This document shows, one piece after another, positions 2,053-20,321 of a DNA stretch of 22,070 nt. Source of the stretch: a virus; the IMG/VR virus record IMGVR_UViG_3300046534_000160, positions 1-22,070 of that record. One strand, given 5' to 3'. The notes below the pieces were generated by a model. It searched no databases and had not been told where the DNA came from. It saw only the letters and a program-made list of their open reading frames with translations. Every line of letters begins with the position of its first letter. Position 1 is the stretch's first letter. A program made the position numbers and the translations under genes.

Positions 2053-3357
2053 ATGGGAATTGGAATTGGAACTGGAGGTAGGATTGTGAGAGGTGCAGCA
2101 AGTCTCAGCAGTGTGGGTAGTCGTGTATGCGTAATAGCTACGTCTTTAGGTAATCAACAGTCGTCAGCAACATCAACGACCATTCGTAGGACTGCGCAGT
2201 CATGGGTTGATTGGGCTAGCGCCCTATCCAACGGCATGATTCAGTTTCCTGTATGGCATGACCCTACAGTTATTGCAGGTTGGGAGCCGGATGGTGCAGG
2301 TACAACACGCAGTTTTCAGGGGCTAAACTGTGGCGTTTCAGATCAAACAGCTCTACAAATATATGATCGTCGAGTGTCAATATTATCGTATAAAGCAGAC
2401 ATCTATGTTTTAGATATGGGGACTAATGATATAAGTTCTCAGACTGCGGAATATATACACAATTACCGACATTTAATGGCTACGTTTTTAAGTGAGCAAA
2501 ATAAACCGGTTATTGTATTACCTATATTGGCTAGAGACGCATCGGTCTGGGCTGAGGGTGGGACAGAACAGCTAAAGGCGTTAGAGGTTAACAGATTAAG
2601 TCGAGAATCTATGCGACAAATCCCCAACGTCTATATTTATGACTGGAACAATAGGTTTGTAGATCAAGATACGAATTTCACTCCGAGGACAGATGCCAGC
2701 ATAGATGGTACGCATTTTAGCGGAAAAGCGGCGTACTGGGTTGGCAAGGATTTTGGTAATTATATATCTCAATTCATAACATTTTCAGACGGGGAAATGG
2801 CGTCTACGAATGAACTTCCCGTGTTCACCGGCACAGGCGGTAGTAATACAGATACAACGGGTGACGTTCCAGACGGCTATAAATTTGAGCGGGTCAGTGG
2901 AGTTACTGCGGGGGTTTCTAGTGTTGGAGCTGACTACGTGCAGCTAGCCCTTACTACGACAGGCGCGGCAGGAGAATCGTTATTTTATTTTAGAACGGCA
3001 TCCGCAGATACAACTCACACATTTGCTGACGAATGGATGATGGCCAAATGCCTAATTGAAACACTAACTGCGAGCAGTAGTGTATTAGAGATAATTCTTT
3101 CGTTTAGAGACAGAGGGACAGCAGGGTTGACAGCTAGTGATGGGGACGCAAAGCCTGGGGCAAACTTCCCACCCGAAGAATTTGCTAAACTGTTTTCTAC
3201 TCCGCACAATAAATTTGTGAGTGATTCGACTCAGTATAGATGGCGCATAGAGGTTCGTTTAGATAATAGCGTTGCGGAGACGGTCACCATTAAAATCAAT
3301 CAGCCGTCGGTAAAAGAAGTTGCAGATCCGATTGTTCGCTACGGTTCAATCACTTAA
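2053..3357 (+). CDS. SGNH/GDSL-type hydrolase, probable virion-borne esterase or spike fibre
   Basis: The 434-residue product has the SGNH blocks in order: block I ATSLGNQ with the nucleophile Ser31, block II Gly94 (NCGVSD), block III GTND with Asn125, and block V DGTH with Asp218 and His221. The catalytic and oxyanion residues are therefore all present, although block I lacks the usual GDS glycine and aspartate. Residues from about 240 to 434 are rich in Thr, Ser, Gly and Val and look like a beta-sandwich, possibly carbohydrate-binding. Known members remove acyl groups from polysaccharides or other esters, so capsule or O-antigen deacetylation is a sensible inference. The glycine/isoleucine-rich N-terminus (MGIGIG) resembles anchor peptides of phage spikes. 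The alternative GTG start at 2086 has a better Shine-Dalgarno (GGAGGT, 2074-2079) but would remove that peptide. The next gene looks like a spike base, supporting a virion role. Confidence 0.75.
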   Translation: MGIGIGTGGRIVRGAASLSSVGSRVCVIATSLGNQQSSATSTTIRRTAQSWVDWASALSNGMIQFPVWHDPTVIAGWEPDGAGTTRSFQGLNCGVSDQTALQIYDRRVSILSYKADIYVLDMGTNDISSQTAEYIHNYRHLMATFLSEQNKPVIVLPILARDASVWAEGGTEQLKALEVNRLSRESMRQIPNVYIYDWNNRFVDQDTNFTPRTDASIDGTHFSGKAAYWVGKDFGNYISQFITFSDGEMASTNELPVFTGTGGSNTDTTGDVPDGYKFERVSGVTAGVSSVGADYVQLALTTTGAAGESLFYFRTASADTTHTFADEWMMAKCLIETLTASSSVLEIILSFRDRGTAGLTASDGDAKPGANFPPEEFAKLFSTPHNKFVSDSTQYRWRIEVRLDNSVAETVTIKINQPSVKEVADPIVRYGSIT

Positions 3358-13411: not shown

Positions 13412-13761
13412 ATGTAGTCGAAATGCAACATGAGGTAGCTCAATTACCGCAATCAATGCCGGAGGTTGTCCATCGTTTTGCTGATGGCTGCTACTCGCGT
13501 GAGGCAACAATGCTAAAAGGCACTTTAGGTGTTGGCGCATTGCATAAAACTAATCATCATTTTCTTTTATCTAAAGGAATGATCTTGGTTCAGAATGGAA
13601 ATGTTGGCGAAATACTTAGCGCCCCCTACCATGAGATTACGCAGCCCGGCGATAAGCGTTCTATATTTGCAATGGAGGATAGTGTGATTACTACCTTTCA
13701 TGTAACAGACTTAACAGATGTGGACGCTATCGGCGATTTGATTTTAGGAGAAGAGTTATGA
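13408..13761 (+). CDS. Cupin-like virion-region protein
   Basis: The 117-residue product carries H46 and H50/H51 in LHKTNHHFLLSKG, a turn-rich middle with SAPYHEI and PGDKRS, and H98 in TTFHVTDLTD. This is the two-motif pattern of a cupin-type beta barrel and matches small cupin-like proteins I have seen in other podovirus tail regions. The histidines could bind a metal. Enzymatic activity is not established. ATG 13408 overlaps the previous stop; a longer reading from 13321 would run through the nozzle gene and is not needed. AGGAG before the next start is supplied by this gene's own end. Confidence 0.65.
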   Translation: MNVVEMQHEVAQLPQSMPEVVHRFADGCYSREATMLKGTLGVGALHKTNHHFLLSKGMILVQNGNVGEILSAPYHEITQPGDKRSIFAMEDSVITTFHVTDLTDVDAIGDLILGEEL

Positions 13762-14168
13762 CATGGTTTACAGTGGCCGCAGTAGTTGTCGGCACTCTTG
13801 TTACCGCTGACGCACAGAAGAAGCAAGGCCAACAACAGCAAATGGACGTTGAGCGTCAAGCCGAGACTGAAAAATTATCCGCTGAGGGTGAAGAGATTAA
13901 ACGTAGAGAACGATTAAATAAAGTTCTTTCTGCAAATGTTAGGTCTGCGGCTGCTTCTGGCATAAAAACAGAAGGTAGCTCTCAGGCTGTCGCATTAGAT
14001 ACCGCTAAAAACATATCAAGCTCAGAAGGGGCGGAATCATTAAGCCAAAGAATTAGGCAGGATATGTTAAAGCGTGAAGGTAATGCGGCCAAGCAAAGAG
14101 GATCGGGTCAAGCTGCATCAACACTATTGCAGGGCGGGATTAGCGCTTATCAACTGAGTAAATCTTAA
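13758..14168 (+). CDS. Internal virion protein, T7 gp14-like position
   Basis: The 136-residue product has an N-terminal hydrophobic segment (about 2-17, WFTVAAVVVGTLVTA), then a long helical, Gln-, Glu-, Lys- and Ala-rich body with repeated glutamines (KKQGQQQQMDVE) and a Ser/Gly/Ala-rich end. This, and its place before two larger internal proteins, fits the small core protein that inserts into the outer membrane during ejection in T7-like phages. No sequence similarity to gp14 itself can be claimed by eye. Coupled by ATGA before and TAATG after. Confidence 0.7.
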   Translation: MTWFTVAAVVVGTLVTADAQKKQGQQQQMDVERQAETEKLSAEGEEIKRRERLNKVLSANVRSAAASGIKTEGSSQAVALDTAKNISSSEGAESLSQRIRQDMLKREGNAAKQRGSGQAASTLLQGGISAYQLSKS

Positions 14169-16231
14169 TGTTTCAAAAAATCGAGAAGTACGGAACAATC
14201 AGACCGTTAACTGCTGGCAATAACGCCAACACGGAGCGTATGAAGTCGCTTGCTAATCTTGGCAACACGGCAAGCAATCTAGCTTTTGATATTGGCAAAA
14301 AGAAAAGAGTCAAAGAAGGCAAAATTGAAGGTGCTAAAGCTGGCACAGAAGCGGCTGAAACCGGTGTAGCACCAGAAGAGAAAGGCAGCTTTATACCTAG
14401 GATCTTTGATGATGCGTTTAACGATGCACAGCAAGGGGCATATCTTGCGTCTGTCGATAACCAAGCGATTACAAAGCTAAGTGAACTCGAGTCACAATTT
14501 GGTTATGACGTAGAAGGGTATCAGAAAACATCTAAGGGAATGCTTGACGGTTTAGTTAAGAACGCCCCAGAAGCTTATCGCCAACCATTAACCGAGTCTA
14601 TCAATAACTATATCTCTCGCGGAAGTATGCGAGTGAACAATAATATTGTTAAGCGTGGGCAGGAAGAGACTAAAAGCGAATTAGAGTCTGCAAGTAAATC
14701 ATACTCCGATAACGCCGCACGCTTTGCACAGTTAGGCGACTACGATCAAATGGAAGATATGATCGACAAGCTTGAACTTACGACTAAGGCGCGGGTATCT
14801 GCTGGCATAATCTCCAAAGAAGAAGGCGCAGAAACTGTCATGGGCGCTAGAAAAGAAGTGTTCAGGCAGGAAACTAAGCGAGATATTTTAGATACTGGCA
14901 GATCAAACTATAGTAAAGCGGTAAAAATGCTTGATGATTTTGAGCGTAAGACACCGCCTAACCATACCCCTGACGAACATGAAACAAATGTCGACTCAAT
15001 TAGGGCGGATTTGAGACGGCTTGAGCCCGAAAAGAAAAAGGCGAAGGAGTCTGGCGGCTGGCTTAAGAAAGCGACCGCATCGGTAGGAGCTGGTTTTACT
15101 CTTTCTAGTGCTGACAAAGCAGAAGGGGCTTCGTTGGTTGCTGGCACTGACAAGCAAGAAGATTACGAACGATTGGTTCAGGCCGATAACTTTTCGCGCC
15201 TACCCTCGTCACAACGCAATGCAATCTTGGGCCAGTTAAATGATGCGGGTACGCTACAGGCTCAAACTGACTTTATAGCCATGAACAAGATACATCAAAA
15301 TGTTCTTCAAATGGCTAAAGATGACGGTATGGCTTTAGCTGAAAGGCAAGGTATTGTAAACCCTGCTAGTATTGAAGGTGGCGACATGGCCGCACGCAAT
15401 GAGCAGGCAGAGGAGTTAAGCGAAAGATATGGCGTGACTGTAAGCCCGTTTAAAGTTAGTCAGATCGAATCGCTTGTAGAATCAATGGCCGACAAAACCC
15501 CATTAGAGAAAGCAGAGCTAGCTATGGGCCTTGGTGGTAATGAAGCCACTTACCGACAGCTAGACAAAAAGAATGCGTCGACCTTTGCCATGTTATCCGC
15601 ACGAGGCGATGAAGATATTGCTAAAGCCGTCTTTACAGGTGAAGAGCTGATTAAAACTAAGCAGTTTAAATTTCCGCCGCGTGAAAAATATATGGTTGAT
15701 GTTGAAGCCTATCTCGGTGAACCTGGCGAAGTGTATCAGGTTGAAGATAGAGCTATTATTATTAATGCCGCTCAAAACTACTACGCCACAATAGGTGACG
15801 AGGAGTATGACCCATCATCTATGGAAAAGGCATTGATAGCTATTACCGGCGGGATTGGTGTTGTTAATGGTCGTCGCGTTGAATTGCCGCAAGGCGTTGA
15901 GGGTGATGACCTGGATGACTTTTTTAACGAGATTAATCCAGAAATATTAAAACAGTTTGGCGGCTTACTTCACCCACATGATATAGATGATGTTCGTGAC
16001 GGCAATTTAGTATCTGTTGGTTCTGGGCGATACCAATTAGAAATCGAGGGTATGAGACAGTACAATAGAAAGCACGAACCCTTTGAAATTGAAATAACAC
16101 CAGAATTAATTATGGGCAATGAACAACTTAATCAAACCCCATTAGATAACGCAATGGCAGCCAATGTAGAGCGCTATAAAAAGGATCAATTAAGAAAGGC
16201 CGAAGCCGCTAAAAGACGGAGGGCCAGATAA
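14168..16231 (+). CDS. Internal virion protein, T7 gp15-like
   Basis: The 687-residue product is close in size to T7 gp15 (747). It is hydrophilic and almost wholly helical, with many Lys/Glu-rich stretches (for example about 265-300) and no signal or membrane segments. The C-terminus is a basic helix ending KAEAAKRRRAR. Such proteins form an ejectosome component that enters the periplasm. It lies between the small internal protein and the two genes that look like a split gp16, sharing a base with each neighbour (TAATG). The function is from order and composition. Confidence 0.75.
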   Translation: MFQKIEKYGTIRPLTAGNNANTERMKSLANLGNTASNLAFDIGKKKRVKEGKIEGAKAGTEAAETGVAPEEKGSFIPRIFDDAFNDAQQGAYLASVDNQAITKLSELESQFGYDVEGYQKTSKGMLDGLVKNAPEAYRQPLTESINNYISRGSMRVNNNIVKRGQEETKSELESASKSYSDNAARFAQLGDYDQMEDMIDKLELTTKARVSAGIISKEEGAETVMGARKEVFRQETKRDILDTGRSNYSKAVKMLDDFERKTPPNHTPDEHETNVDSIRADLRRLEPEKKKAKESGGWLKKATASVGAGFTLSSADKAEGASLVAGTDKQEDYERLVQADNFSRLPSSQRNAILGQLNDAGTLQAQTDFIAMNKIHQNVLQMAKDDGMALAERQGIVNPASIEGGDMAARNEQAEELSERYGVTVSPFKVSQIESLVESMADKTPLEKAELAMGLGGNEATYRQLDKKNASTFAMLSARGDEDIAKAVFTGEELIKTKQFKFPPREKYMVDVEAYLGEPGEVYQVEDRAIIINAAQNYYATIGDEEYDPSSMEKALIAITGGIGVVNGRRVELPQGVEGDDLDDFFNEINPEILKQFGGLLHPHDIDDVRDGNLVSVGSGRYQLEIEGMRQYNRKHEPFEIEITPELIMGNEQLNQTPLDNAMAANVERYKKDQLRKAEAAKRRRAR

Positions 16232-17994
16232 TGCCTTTTGTATCTGCGCGTGATGAACGTGTAAGGTCTACTGATTTAAATTTTCAGGAAGAGTTTAAGC
16301 CTAAATCGACTGCGGGAGAAGTTTACGAAGCATCTATAGGCTTAACCATAGATGAAGACCTTTCTATATCCTCAAAATTAAACCGTGAATCTTATCGAGA
16401 AAGAAAAGCTATAGTTAAAGGTTTGATTGAGTCCGGAGAGATTGACGGAAAAGATTACGTAGTCAGCGGGAATAGGGGAGCCACTCCTTTTTCTGGTGGC
16501 GGAGCTTCTACCTTTAATTATGATGCGCTATCGGAAAAGTACCCACAAGTACGCAAAGATAACGACCTTCGTGAAGAGCGAAACGCAACGCTTAAATCAC
16601 GAAGAGATTACGCTAACGATGTCTTTGAGCGCGGCCCCGGCTGGGCTAGAATTGCCGGCGCGGCTACAGTTTTTCCGCTCGACCCTGTATCAATTGCCAC
16701 CATGCCTATTGGGTATTCAGTTGGTGCAGCTAAAGGTTTGCACGCTGTAGGTAATGCCATGCTAAAAGTTGGCGCTACTGAAATGCTGGTAGAGACAGGC
16801 ATCCAAGGTTTCGTATATGGCCATAAGCAAGATATTGATTCACCTTACAGTTATCAGGAAGCGCTTACTAATATTGGCACAGCGGCTTTCGGCTCTGCGC
16901 TGCTGGCCGGTACAGGCATGGGCATTAAAGAATACATATCGAGCATACGAGCGAAGACCAAAGACTTACCTCAGTCTGAGCAGCTAGACTTTGCTGATGA
17001 AACGCTCGCACGCATGGAGGACACTTTAAGTAACAACCCTTTACGTAAAGAGGGTATGACATCGAAAGAGCTTGTTGAAGCCGATAAAGAATTTTTGACT
17101 GAGCTTGAAGTGCGTAGAACTAAGGTCGAACCCGTACAGGTTGAGCGTAAAGAATATGCTAAAATAGACGGCACGCCACAAGCCAGTAGCCGTGAATTGT
17201 CAGTAATGGACAGAATAGGTCAGGCAGAAGAATATAAGCAGGATTTGCTGGCCTATGAACAGAAAGTTGGGAAGATGAGTGAAGAGCTAAAAGATGTTGA
17301 GCCGTATTTTCCAGAAGAAACAGATTTTGATTTTCCAATAACCCATGATGGTGGAGTGATAGGAAAAATAGAGAACACTGGTGTATTCAAAGGAATTTTT
17401 GGGGAATCAGGTATTTCATCTAGCGGTGGATTAGGGACAGGAGGGGAACAAACTACTTTTTTCCCTAGAAAAGGAAAGGTTATGGGCGAGAGTGATGTCG
17501 ATATAGACTACGATGAATCAATAGAATGGCTAAAAAAACAGCATCCTGACGCTGATGAAAACGAAATTGATGGCCTTTACGATGTTGTAATGCGAGATAA
17601 AGACTTATTTGATATGGAATCAAACCCATTTGAAAGATTCGGGTTTGATGATTTAGGAGAGGCGTCATGGGAAGGTCAGAAGCTTAGGGGGCAATACGCA
17701 GCAAGTAAGGGCTATGATGCTGTAGCAATGCGAGACGAGACGGGGGTAAGTTATCTGCTCCCCTATGGGTCTCAAGCAAAAAAATCCCTTAAAAAATTAA
17801 ACGATTATGACGAAATTGAGGATCTAAAAAGTAAGACACCAAATAAAAGCGAGACAAAAACCAAAGAAACAGAAATTAAGCCGGGCGTATCAATAGAAAT
17901 TGATGGAATAAGGTACGACTCAAACGAATACATAAAAGGCATTGATTCTGAAATTGAAGGAATTGAAGCCGTTAACAGGTGCTTGTTAGGATGA
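16231..17994 (+). CDS. Internal virion protein (N-part of a gp16-like core protein) with C-terminal ART-like domain
   Basis: The 587-residue product has an N-terminal helical part, a hydrophobic Gly/Ala-rich region (about 137-230, including AGAATVFPLDPVSIATMPIG) that resembles the membrane-associated region of large podovirus internal proteins, a charged coiled-coil (about 245-355), and then a distinct domain at about 383-515. That domain has GVFKGIFGESG, the segment around WEGQKLRGQYAASKGYDAVAM and DETGVSYLLP, a pattern I recall from ADP-ribosyltransferase (ART-PolyVal) domains of phage polyvalent proteins. Its tail is polar and ends VNRCLLG. The stop overlaps the next ATG (ATGA). Catalytic residues of the ART fold cannot be pinned by eye. 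Confidence 0.7.
   Translation: MPFVSARDERVRSTDLNFQEEFKPKSTAGEVYEASIGLTIDEDLSISSKLNRESYRERKAIVKGLIESGEIDGKDYVVSGNRGATPFSGGGASTFNYDALSEKYPQVRKDNDLREERNATLKSRRDYANDVFERGPGWARIAGAATVFPLDPVSIATMPIGYSVGAAKGLHAVGNAMLKVGATEMLVETGIQGFVYGHKQDIDSPYSYQEALTNIGTAAFGSALLAGTGMGIKEYISSIRAKTKDLPQSEQLDFADETLARMEDTLSNNPLRKEGMTSKELVEADKEFLTELEVRRTKVEPVQVERKEYAKIDGTPQASSRELSVMDRIGQAEEYKQDLLAYEQKVGKMSEELKDVEPYFPEETDFDFPITHDGGVIGKIENTGVFKGIFGESGISSSGGLGTGGEQTTFFPRKGKVMGESDVDIDYDESIEWLKKQHPDADENEIDGLYDVVMRDKDLFDMESNPFERFGFDDLGEASWEGQKLRGQYAASKGYDAVAMRDETGVSYLLPYGSQAKKSLKKLNDYDEIEDLKSKTPNKSETKTKETEIKPGVSIEIDGIRYDSNEYIKGIDSEIEGIEAVNRCLLG
17377..17790 (+). other. Putative ADP-ribosyltransferase-like domain coding segment
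   Basis: This segment encodes residues 383-520 of the internal virion protein. The Gln483/Arg486 region (EGQKLRG), Tyr495-Asp496 (GYDAV) and Glu503 (RDETG) fit the conserved C-terminal part of ART-PolyVal-type domains as I remember them. All 12 glycine codons between residues 374 and 405 are GGA, GGG or GGT with no GGC, unlike the GGC-rich upstream half of the gene, hinting at a separate origin. The domain call is recognition plus inference. Confidence 0.5.
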
Positions 17995-20321
17995 ACCCTT
18001 GTATTAGTGCAGCGTTAAAGGCTGGGAAGATCACCAAAGACTTAGCGCAACGATTAGATTCAGCGGAAGATTTGAATTCTGCCATTGAATTTGAAACGCT
18101 AGGACTTGCACGCAATAAGCGCGAGGCCGCTATTCAAGGTGTTCGTGTGGCTGATGGGTGGGAGAAAGCTAAGTCTCACGAGAGAGGCACGTTTGACGGC
18201 ATATGGTCGCTGTTAGCTAGGGATATGACAGAGAAATCAGGGTACAACAATATTGACACCTTGCAACTGCATTACCAAGGCCGCTATCACTCAAAATTCC
18301 GTGAAGCATTAGGCGCTTTTAGAACTAAAAACTTCGGCCTATCTCAAGATAAAGAAGGTATTCATAAATTAATCAAAGCTATCTACGGTGAAACGGTAGA
18401 CGATCCGGAGATAATGAAGTTTGCTAAACAATGGGCCGACCTTGCTGACGAAATGAGATTAGACTTTAACGCGAAAGGCGGTTCAATTTCTAAGAATGAG
18501 AAGTGGTTATTGCCACAAGCGCATGATGCCAATAAGATACTAAAGAAAAAACTACCTGATCGCGGTTTGGCTGATTGGAAAGCTAAGATTGCATCCAAGC
18601 TAGATAGGTCGCAAATGCTAGATGACCTCGGCAAGCCGTTAAGTGATGCAGATTTAGACGAGGCATTAGATTATACGTTTGAGACTATCACTACCGGCGG
18701 GTTAAATAAGGCCAAAGATTTAAGTGTTCCACGATTAGGAAAAAAGCTTAGTCGTCGCGGTTCTGATAAACGCTTTCTATTCTTTAAAGATGCCGATTCA
18801 TGGATGCAATACAATGAAGAGTTTGGTACGGGCAATATATTTACCACGCTGACTGATCATATTGAATCAAAAGCTAACGATAACGCGATGATCGAAATAA
18901 TGGGGCCAAACCCGCAAGCAGCTTATGACACGCTCACGGCAATGGCAAAGAAGGAGGGCGGCTTAACTGAAATACAGGAGGCCAAACTTAACTCATTGTG
19001 GAATGTAGTTTCTGGCAAGGTTAATGCTGGTACATTAACGCTTGCTTCGGATATTGGTCAAGGAGTGAGGAACGCTATTACAGCCACTACTCTTGGCGGT
19101 GCAATGTTAAGCGCCACTTCGGACGTTGGCTTTCAGCTTATAGCGGCCAAGTCAAACAAAATACCGTTTGTTAAAGTTATGCGAACAATGGTCAAGCAGC
19201 TTAACCCAAAGAACGAAGCCGATAGAATGCTTGCCGCCCAAATAGGTTTGGGGTTGGATGAGTGGACGGATTTAGCTTCTAGCGCAAACCGATGGGCTGA
19301 CATGTACGGCACAGGTGGTACGGCCAAGGTTGCGGATTTTGTTATGCGTGCTTCGTTCTTGGCTCAATGGACGGATGCGGGGCGCAAGGCTTTTGGCATG
19401 GAGTTCGCCGCTAAATTAGCAAATGACTTCCCTAAAAAGTTCGCCGATCTTGACGATGGCTTTAAAAAACAGTTTAAAATATATGGCATTGATGATGCTG
19501 ACTGGGATAAGTTTAGGAAATCTAAAACCTTATCGAAAGGTAAGGCTAAGTTTGCAGACCTAACACCAAAAGAGGCCGCTAAATTCCATCAAATGGTAAT
19601 GAGTGAAACCAACTTCGCTGTGCCTACGCCTGATGCAAACACTAGACAGGTGACTACTGGCGGCTCAGAGAGGTCATCATTAGCAGGACAAGGCATAAGA
19701 ACAGTCACCAATCTTAAGTCGTTCCCTATTACTATTTTACAGACTCATTTTAAGAGGATGTTAAATCAAGAAGGTATGGGGAAACTACAGTATGCGGGGC
19801 TTATGTTGGGAGTGACTACTATTATGGGTGGCTTGGCTTTACAGCTTAAAGATGTTGCCGCAGGCAGAACCCCTAGGGATACAGGCTATGAGAGTGGCGA
19901 TGTGGATCAAATGAGAAAGTTTCTTATTGCCTCAATGACGCAGGGCGGCGGCTTGGGTATCGTTGGCGATTACGTTTTTTCTGATGTTAACCGATTTGGG
20001 GGTGGCCCGGTTGCTGGCATTACCGGCCCCACAGGTGAGTTAATCAGTAAAACAGCGGAGCTTACACTGGGGAACCTGCAACAACTGGGAGCGGGTGAAG
20101 ATACAAACTTTGCAGGCGAAGCTATACAGTACGCAAAGCGTTATACTCCTGACGTATGGCAGACAAGATTATTAACGGATGCAATGTATGACCAACTAAC
20201 TATCATGGCGGACCCAAGATTCAATAAGAAATTCAGTAGACAAATGAGAAAACGAAACAAAGAATACGGCCAAGATTATTGGTGGAAGAAAGGCGAAATT
20301 ACCCCGGAGTTTGCACAATGA
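17991..20321 (+). CDS. Large internal virion protein (C-part of a gp16-like core protein)
   Basis: The 776-residue product begins at ATG 17991 (TTAGG just before it, overlapping the previous stop as ATGA); the longer GTG 17979 reading has no better site. It is mostly helical, with two hydrophobic, Gly/Ala-rich stretches (about 345-385 and 600-620) that may insert into or cross the inner membrane, and a Gly-rich region with GGGLGIVGDYVF near 653-665. Together with the 587-residue protein before it, the sum (1363) is close to T7 gp16 (1318), so the pair may be a split gp16. It presumably forms part of the DNA ejection channel. No transglycosylase motif was seen. Confidence 0.72.
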   Translation: MNPCISAALKAGKITKDLAQRLDSAEDLNSAIEFETLGLARNKREAAIQGVRVADGWEKAKSHERGTFDGIWSLLARDMTEKSGYNNIDTLQLHYQGRYHSKFREALGAFRTKNFGLSQDKEGIHKLIKAIYGETVDDPEIMKFAKQWADLADEMRLDFNAKGGSISKNEKWLLPQAHDANKILKKKLPDRGLADWKAKIASKLDRSQMLDDLGKPLSDADLDEALDYTFETITTGGLNKAKDLSVPRLGKKLSRRGSDKRFLFFKDADSWMQYNEEFGTGNIFTTLTDHIESKANDNAMIEIMGPNPQAAYDTLTAMAKKEGGLTEIQEAKLNSLWNVVSGKVNAGTLTLASDIGQGVRNAITATTLGGAMLSATSDVGFQLIAAKSNKIPFVKVMRTMVKQLNPKNEADRMLAAQIGLGLDEWTDLASSANRWADMYGTGGTAKVADFVMRASFLAQWTDAGRKAFGMEFAAKLANDFPKKFADLDDGFKKQFKIYGIDDADWDKFRKSKTLSKGKAKFADLTPKEAAKFHQMVMSETNFAVPTPDANTRQVTTGGSERSSLAGQGIRTVTNLKSFPITILQTHFKRMLNQEGMGKLQYAGLMLGVTTIMGGLALQLKDVAAGRTPRDTGYESGDVDQMRKFLIASMTQGGGLGIVGDYVFSDVNRFGGGPVAGITGPTGELISKTAELTLGNLQQLGAGEDTNFAGEAIQYAKRYTPDVWQTRLLTDAMYDQLTIMADPRFNKKFSRQMRKRNKEYGQDYWWKKGEITPEFAQ

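Follow-up and report, generated by a model that had tools for sequence, protein, structure and literature searches.

We analysed a stretch of viral DNA of 22,070 nucleotides (the window; positions 1 to 22,070 of IMG/VR virus record IMGVR_UViG_3300046534_000160), in which a gene for a 587-residue putative ejection protein of a podovirus carries an ADP-ribosyltransferase (ART) domain of the AcrIF11 anti-CRISPR family. Sequence and predicted structure establish the domain, its family, the conservation of its catalytic residues and the swapping of the cassette in which it lies. The gene, an open reading frame (ORF), and its parts are laid out as follows, where L numbers denote the sequences used for comparison.

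16231..17994, + strand: 587-residue putative ejection (core) protein with the ART cassette (ORF; weak PHROG 342 match; relatives)
16231..17262, + strand: conserved N-terminal module, residues 1-344, predicted helical (identity to relatives; low-confidence full-length model)
17264..17841, + strand: exchangeable cassette, residues 345-537 (without DNA similarity to L001, L002 and L004)
17323..17784, + strand: AcrIF11-type ART domain, residues ~365-518 (NF052490, AlphaFold2, Foldseek, independent profile)
17344..17346, + strand: H372 (aligns with H20 of AcrIF11Pae2)
17386..17400, + strand: F386 and F390 of the GVFKGIF loop (homologue alignment)
17734..17739, + strand: D502-E503 (align with the catalytic D115-E116 of Pae1 and D146-E147 of Pae2)
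17842..17991, + strand: conserved C-terminal tail, residues 538-587, ending in SNEYIKGIDSEIEGIEAVNRCLLG (common to relatives regardless of insert)

An earlier note on this DNA had proposed an ART-PolyVal-type domain at the end of the protein, at residues ~383-515 (17377-17790), from the motifs GVFKGIFGESG, WEGQKLRGQYAASKGYDAV and DETGVSYLLP. The motifs are present in the 587-residue ORF where they had been placed. The start of the domain was set too late, with H372 lying upstream of it, and the domain is an internal cassette followed by the conserved tail. The family is also a different one. NCBIfam AcrIF11 (NF052490) matches residues 378-509 (17362-17757) with 50.7 bits, marginally above the cut-off of 50, whereas solo AcrIF11 members score 113-135 with the same model. 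Because of this marginal score, we built an independent profile from stand-alone AcrIF11 homologues and the structure 6KYF, with the window protein excluded. It gave 58.8 bits for the 587-residue protein, against a maximum of 8.0 bits in 1000 shuffles of that protein and at most 2.1 bits for four relatives that carry a different insert or lack one. A phmmer comparison with the PDB aligned the same two blocks, SEIRDSGVFGGLFG of the window with GKIENTGVFKGIFG of AcrIF11, and WELQRLRG...GYTSVEMEDEHG with WEGQKLRG...GYDAVAMRDETG. Judged by sequence, then, the motifs of the window are homologous to those of AcrIF11, and chance is excluded as their source. A Pfam search of the protein with ART-PolyVal (PF18760) gave no match up to an E-value of 1, and we rejected that identity: the domain has the ART fold of the AcrIF11 family, not ART-PolyVal. 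Residues 413-512 are also covered by PHROG 11282, annotated as of unknown function. The stand-alone format of AcrIF11 is not found here, and since the NF052490 "equivalog" model also detects this embedded domain, automatic annotation may label core proteins as anti-CRISPRs.

The predicted structure leads to the same family. An AlphaFold2 model of residues 354-530, based on an alignment of 26 window- and locus-derived sequences, reached a predicted local distance difference test score (pLDDT) of 87.8 and a predicted template modelling score (pTM) of 0.85. Its top Foldseek match in the PDB is AcrIF11 6KYF (E = 2.2e-7, probability 1.00, template modelling score 0.73 on the target), followed by AcrIF11 8DWQ (E = 5e-4), a structure deposited under the name "H3 protein." The full-length model (pLDDT 51.6, pTM 0.29) served for rough secondary structure only and, given its low confidence, was not used for a fold search. 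In the domain, D502 and E503 are invariant in the homologues (26/26), F386 and F390 are both present in all 26, and H372 is kept in 24 of them. In AcrIF11, the mutants D115A, D146A/E147A and H20A/Y46A abolish CRISPR inhibition (PMC12421852). NCBIfam, the model and Foldseek thus bear out the earlier proposal: an internal or core-type protein of a podovirus contains a domain with the ART fold, and key catalytic residues are retained in it.

The relatives of the protein (L001, L003, L005, L118-L124, and a homologue in Vibrio phage K300 at the same locus) share the N-terminal module and the C-terminal tail, and differ in between. At the DNA level, identity to L001, L002 and L004 is 88-89% up to position 17263, similarity is absent over 17264-17841, and identity is then higher (93% to L001 and L002 from 17842 onward). 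Residues 1-298 are 65-88% identical to those of three relatives with different inserts. L005 carries a canonical ART-PolyVal (PF18760, E = 2.5e-14) in the slot and L118 a truncated one (E = 3.7e-6, below the Pfam cut-off), whereas L119-L121 have no recognisable insert and the K300 homologue (391 residues) has none. The insert of the distant relative L124 (L124:5914-9075) is large and includes a zeta-toxin kinase (E = 1.7e-31); an ART-like stretch (YRAVPKG...) is also seen there. The insert of L003 was called ParB-like from a reading of the motif VILDGHHRAKLAA only, and a Pfam search of the inserts of L001 and L003 returned no match. On these comparisons, the window ART is a swappable internal cassette between conserved N- and C-terminal parts. 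The guanine plus cytosine content of the cassette is 0.403, against 0.441 for the window, which places it in the lowest 6% of equal-size windows; this signal is weak, and a foreign origin by composition was not adopted.

The gene lies between internal virion or core genes and a conserved structural gene, with the following neighbours.

13758..14168, + strand: internal virion protein, T7 gp14-like (PHROG 418, E = 7e-6)
14168..16231, + strand: 687-residue ORF in the gp15 position (position only; no match in PHROG and Pfam searches)
17991..20321, + strand: 776-residue virion structural protein (PHROG 684, E = 2.6e-143)

The start of the last gene overlaps the stop of the 587-residue gene, ATG and TGA being shared as ATGA, and relatives of its product occur in epsilon15/phiV10-like, Vibrio, Pseudomonas and other podoviruses and phages. 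Residues 132-261 of the 587-residue protein weakly match PHROG 342, the internal virion protein with endolysin domain of the T7 gp16 type (E = 0.0047), as does a relative (E = 0.0018). Ejection of internal proteins is known from T7, P22 and epsilon15 (PMC8954989). From these virion-gene neighbours, the weak gp16-type match and this precedent, we infer that the 587-residue protein is likely packaged and ejected. The window protein resembles T7 gp16 and the ejection proteins of P22 and epsilon15 in operon position and in its predicted helical ejection module; unlike it, T7 gp16 carries a transglycosylase instead of an ART, and the sequence link between the two is weak.

A structural precedent may be offered by cyanophage A4. 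The third PDB match of the domain model is 9k3a chain B, from the pre-ejectosome of that phage (E = 8.8e-3, probability 0.97), which is ORF27 of Anabaena phage A-4L (L125, 20116-25269, - strand), annotated as "tail protein." Near its residues 1424-1470, ORF27 has an ART-like stretch (YHGT...GTYFS), possibly preceded by a ParB-like one. The ART-like stretch matches PF18760 weakly (E = 0.19), and the AcrIF11-type profile found no sequence match in ORF27 or ORF28. The fold match lists no residues, and we presume that it coincides with this stretch. ORF27 resembles the window's putative ejection protein in that an ART-like stretch lies within a large ejectosome chain of a podovirus, with the gene of a second large core protein alongside; its weak ART-PolyVal match and missing AcrIF11 match set it apart.

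Virion-delivered ARTs are already known from T4 Alt and polyvalent proteins (PMC5512222, PMC9503650). T4 Alt resembles the window protein in principle, as a virion-delivered ART, but is a free-standing myovirus head protein for which we found no sequence relation to the window domain. Polyvalent proteins of phages, for which injection is predicted, likewise contain ART domains (Iyer et al. 2017, PMC5512222), and a close relative of the window protein has ART-PolyVal in the equivalent protein; the window domain differs in its family and in its place in a compact podovirus core protein. With AcrIF11 itself (Pae1, 6KYF; Pae2, 8DWQ), which ADP-ribosylates N250 of Csy1 (Cas8f) and inhibits type I-F CRISPR-Cas, the window domain shares the ART fold, both sequence blocks and the H and D-E catalytic positions. 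AcrIF11 is stand-alone and made in the cell after infection, whereas the window domain forms part of a virion-type protein as a cassette. The novelty lies in an AcrIF11-family ART that occupies an exchangeable slot within the putative ejection protein of a podovirus; among the open-access papers that our searches found, most of them judged by title and abstract, we saw none that linked AcrIF11 to an ejected protein.

AcrIF11-like domains are embedded elsewhere as well, in proteins of up to 3228 residues that include giant polyvalent ones. The AcrIF11 phylogeny study dropped homologues longer than 200 residues (PMC12421852), and the embedded group would therefore not appear in it. Proteins of 2339-3228 residues that combine AcrIF11-like and other domains were seen in L060:3121-10140, L062:76-9762 and L064:1-9126, that of L060 uniting the domain with ART-PolyVal and LPD22. 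AcrIF11-like ORFs of roughly 300-680 residues lie between the portal and scaffold or major head genes (L056:4150-6183, L063:3148-4155) or between the portal and major head genes (L066:2933-3919); L016:3238-4236 has the same portal-adjacent setting by position.

We therefore favour, at a probability of roughly two in three, an ejected, active mono-ADP-ribosyltransferase effector of the AcrIF11 family in an exchangeable slot of a podovirus core protein. The 587-residue protein would be packaged in the head and leave through the portal upon infection, carrying the ART with it; the domain would refold on meeting cytoplasmic nicotinamide adenine dinucleotide (NAD+) and modify a specific host protein before any phage gene is expressed. 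That protein would most likely be a component of antiviral defence, the kind of target to which the exchange of unrelated effectors in the slot points. Cas8f (Csy1) of type I-F is the leading named candidate, as the only known target within the AcrIF11 family, and we consider it rather unlikely in itself. We give the same low odds to the full scenario of a virion-packaged anti-CRISPR, in which a pre-made AcrIF11-type ART would be ejected and ADP-ribosylate Cas8f before the genome is targeted.

Several observations weigh against an ejected, active AcrIF11-type effector. For the third residue of the active site (in Pae1 the second H of H-F-H-D, in Pae2 Y46), the window domain shows no aligned H or Y and the sister embedded domains show no counterpart, although the alignment of this loop is uncertain. 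The cleft thus appears from the alignment to be mostly, not wholly, that of AcrIF11. In the tree, the window domain groups with embedded domains (support 98/68), apart from the main stand-alone clade, with Pae1 and Pae2 elsewhere on long branches; the literature that we searched held no experimental test of any domain of the embedded group. The N-terminal module has only a weakly supported homology to T7 gp16, and phiV10p19 (epsilon15p16-like, at the same locus) has no match to the module by BLASTP or hhalign, so that homology to it was rejected. Moreover, the exact fusion was found in one copy only. It was absent from the isolate phages searched, where the domain matched only short stand-alone genes, and among bacterial genomes (369 class and 399 phylum draws) the sole match was a stand-alone copy in the seed genome.

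The incomplete active site, without the H/Y residue kept by stand-alone AcrIF11, speaks for a rival reading in which the cassette is a pseudo-enzyme, a structural or binding domain on an ART fold that has lost catalysis. We hold this improbable: the diverse embedded homologues retain H372 and both phenylalanines, as well as D502 and E503 without exception, and Pae1 and Pae2 themselves differ at the third position, while both are active (PMC12421852). An ejected ART might instead act on house-keeping proteins, such as RNA polymerase or translation factors, in a host takeover like that of T4 Alt; related virion ARTs such as Alt do modify host RNA polymerase (PMC5512222), the window domain falls outside the tested AcrIF11 clade, and the helical region to which target recognition is ascribed is unlike that of stand-alone AcrIF11. 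This is a possible but less likely alternative, because the only members of the family whose target is known are highly specific in modifying Csy1 (PMC12421852), and because unrelated effectors swapped among close relatives fit a fast arms race better. As it shares the delivery step with the effector that we favour, our confidences overlap and do not sum to one.

Delivery itself might fail, if the protein were retained in the capsid or periplasm or had a late role in assembly. NAD+ is a cytoplasmic substrate, and since the catalytic residues are under selection, cytoplasmic exposure of the domain is indicated. T7 gp16 does remain partly in the periplasm, yet internal proteins of T7, P22 and epsilon15 are ejected (PMC8954989), and an ART-like stretch is found in a solved podovirus pre-ejectosome chain. 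Retention or a late role thus seems about as improbable as a pseudo-enzyme, if not slightly more so.

Our results suggest that a phage can arrive with an AcrIF11-family enzyme ready-made. Anti-CRISPR phages are thought to synthesise their inhibitor after infection, with the consequence that early infections fail and phages cooperate. If the scenario of a virion-packaged anti-CRISPR is true, a catalytic inhibitor that is ejected along with the DNA would be effective immediately, turnover could multiply its effect, and the anti-CRISPR would not need to be expressed first. In that case, the embedded AcrIF11-like ARTs of polyvalent and portal-adjacent proteins would make up a broad group of CRISPR inhibitors brought in by the virion, and they may have a common ancestry with stand-alone AcrIF11. 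Effector swapping in one slot of an ejection protein would also make phage counter-defence repertoires readable from structural genes.

Elsewhere in the window, a search for tRNAs returned none, and a host genome for the phage was not found. The left end (3-392) encodes a DUF5675 protein (E = 1.1e-25), and a 434-residue ORF (2053-3357) contains a GDSL-like lipase/acylhydrolase domain (PF13472, E = 5.6e-8), perhaps that of a virion or tail-associated esterase.
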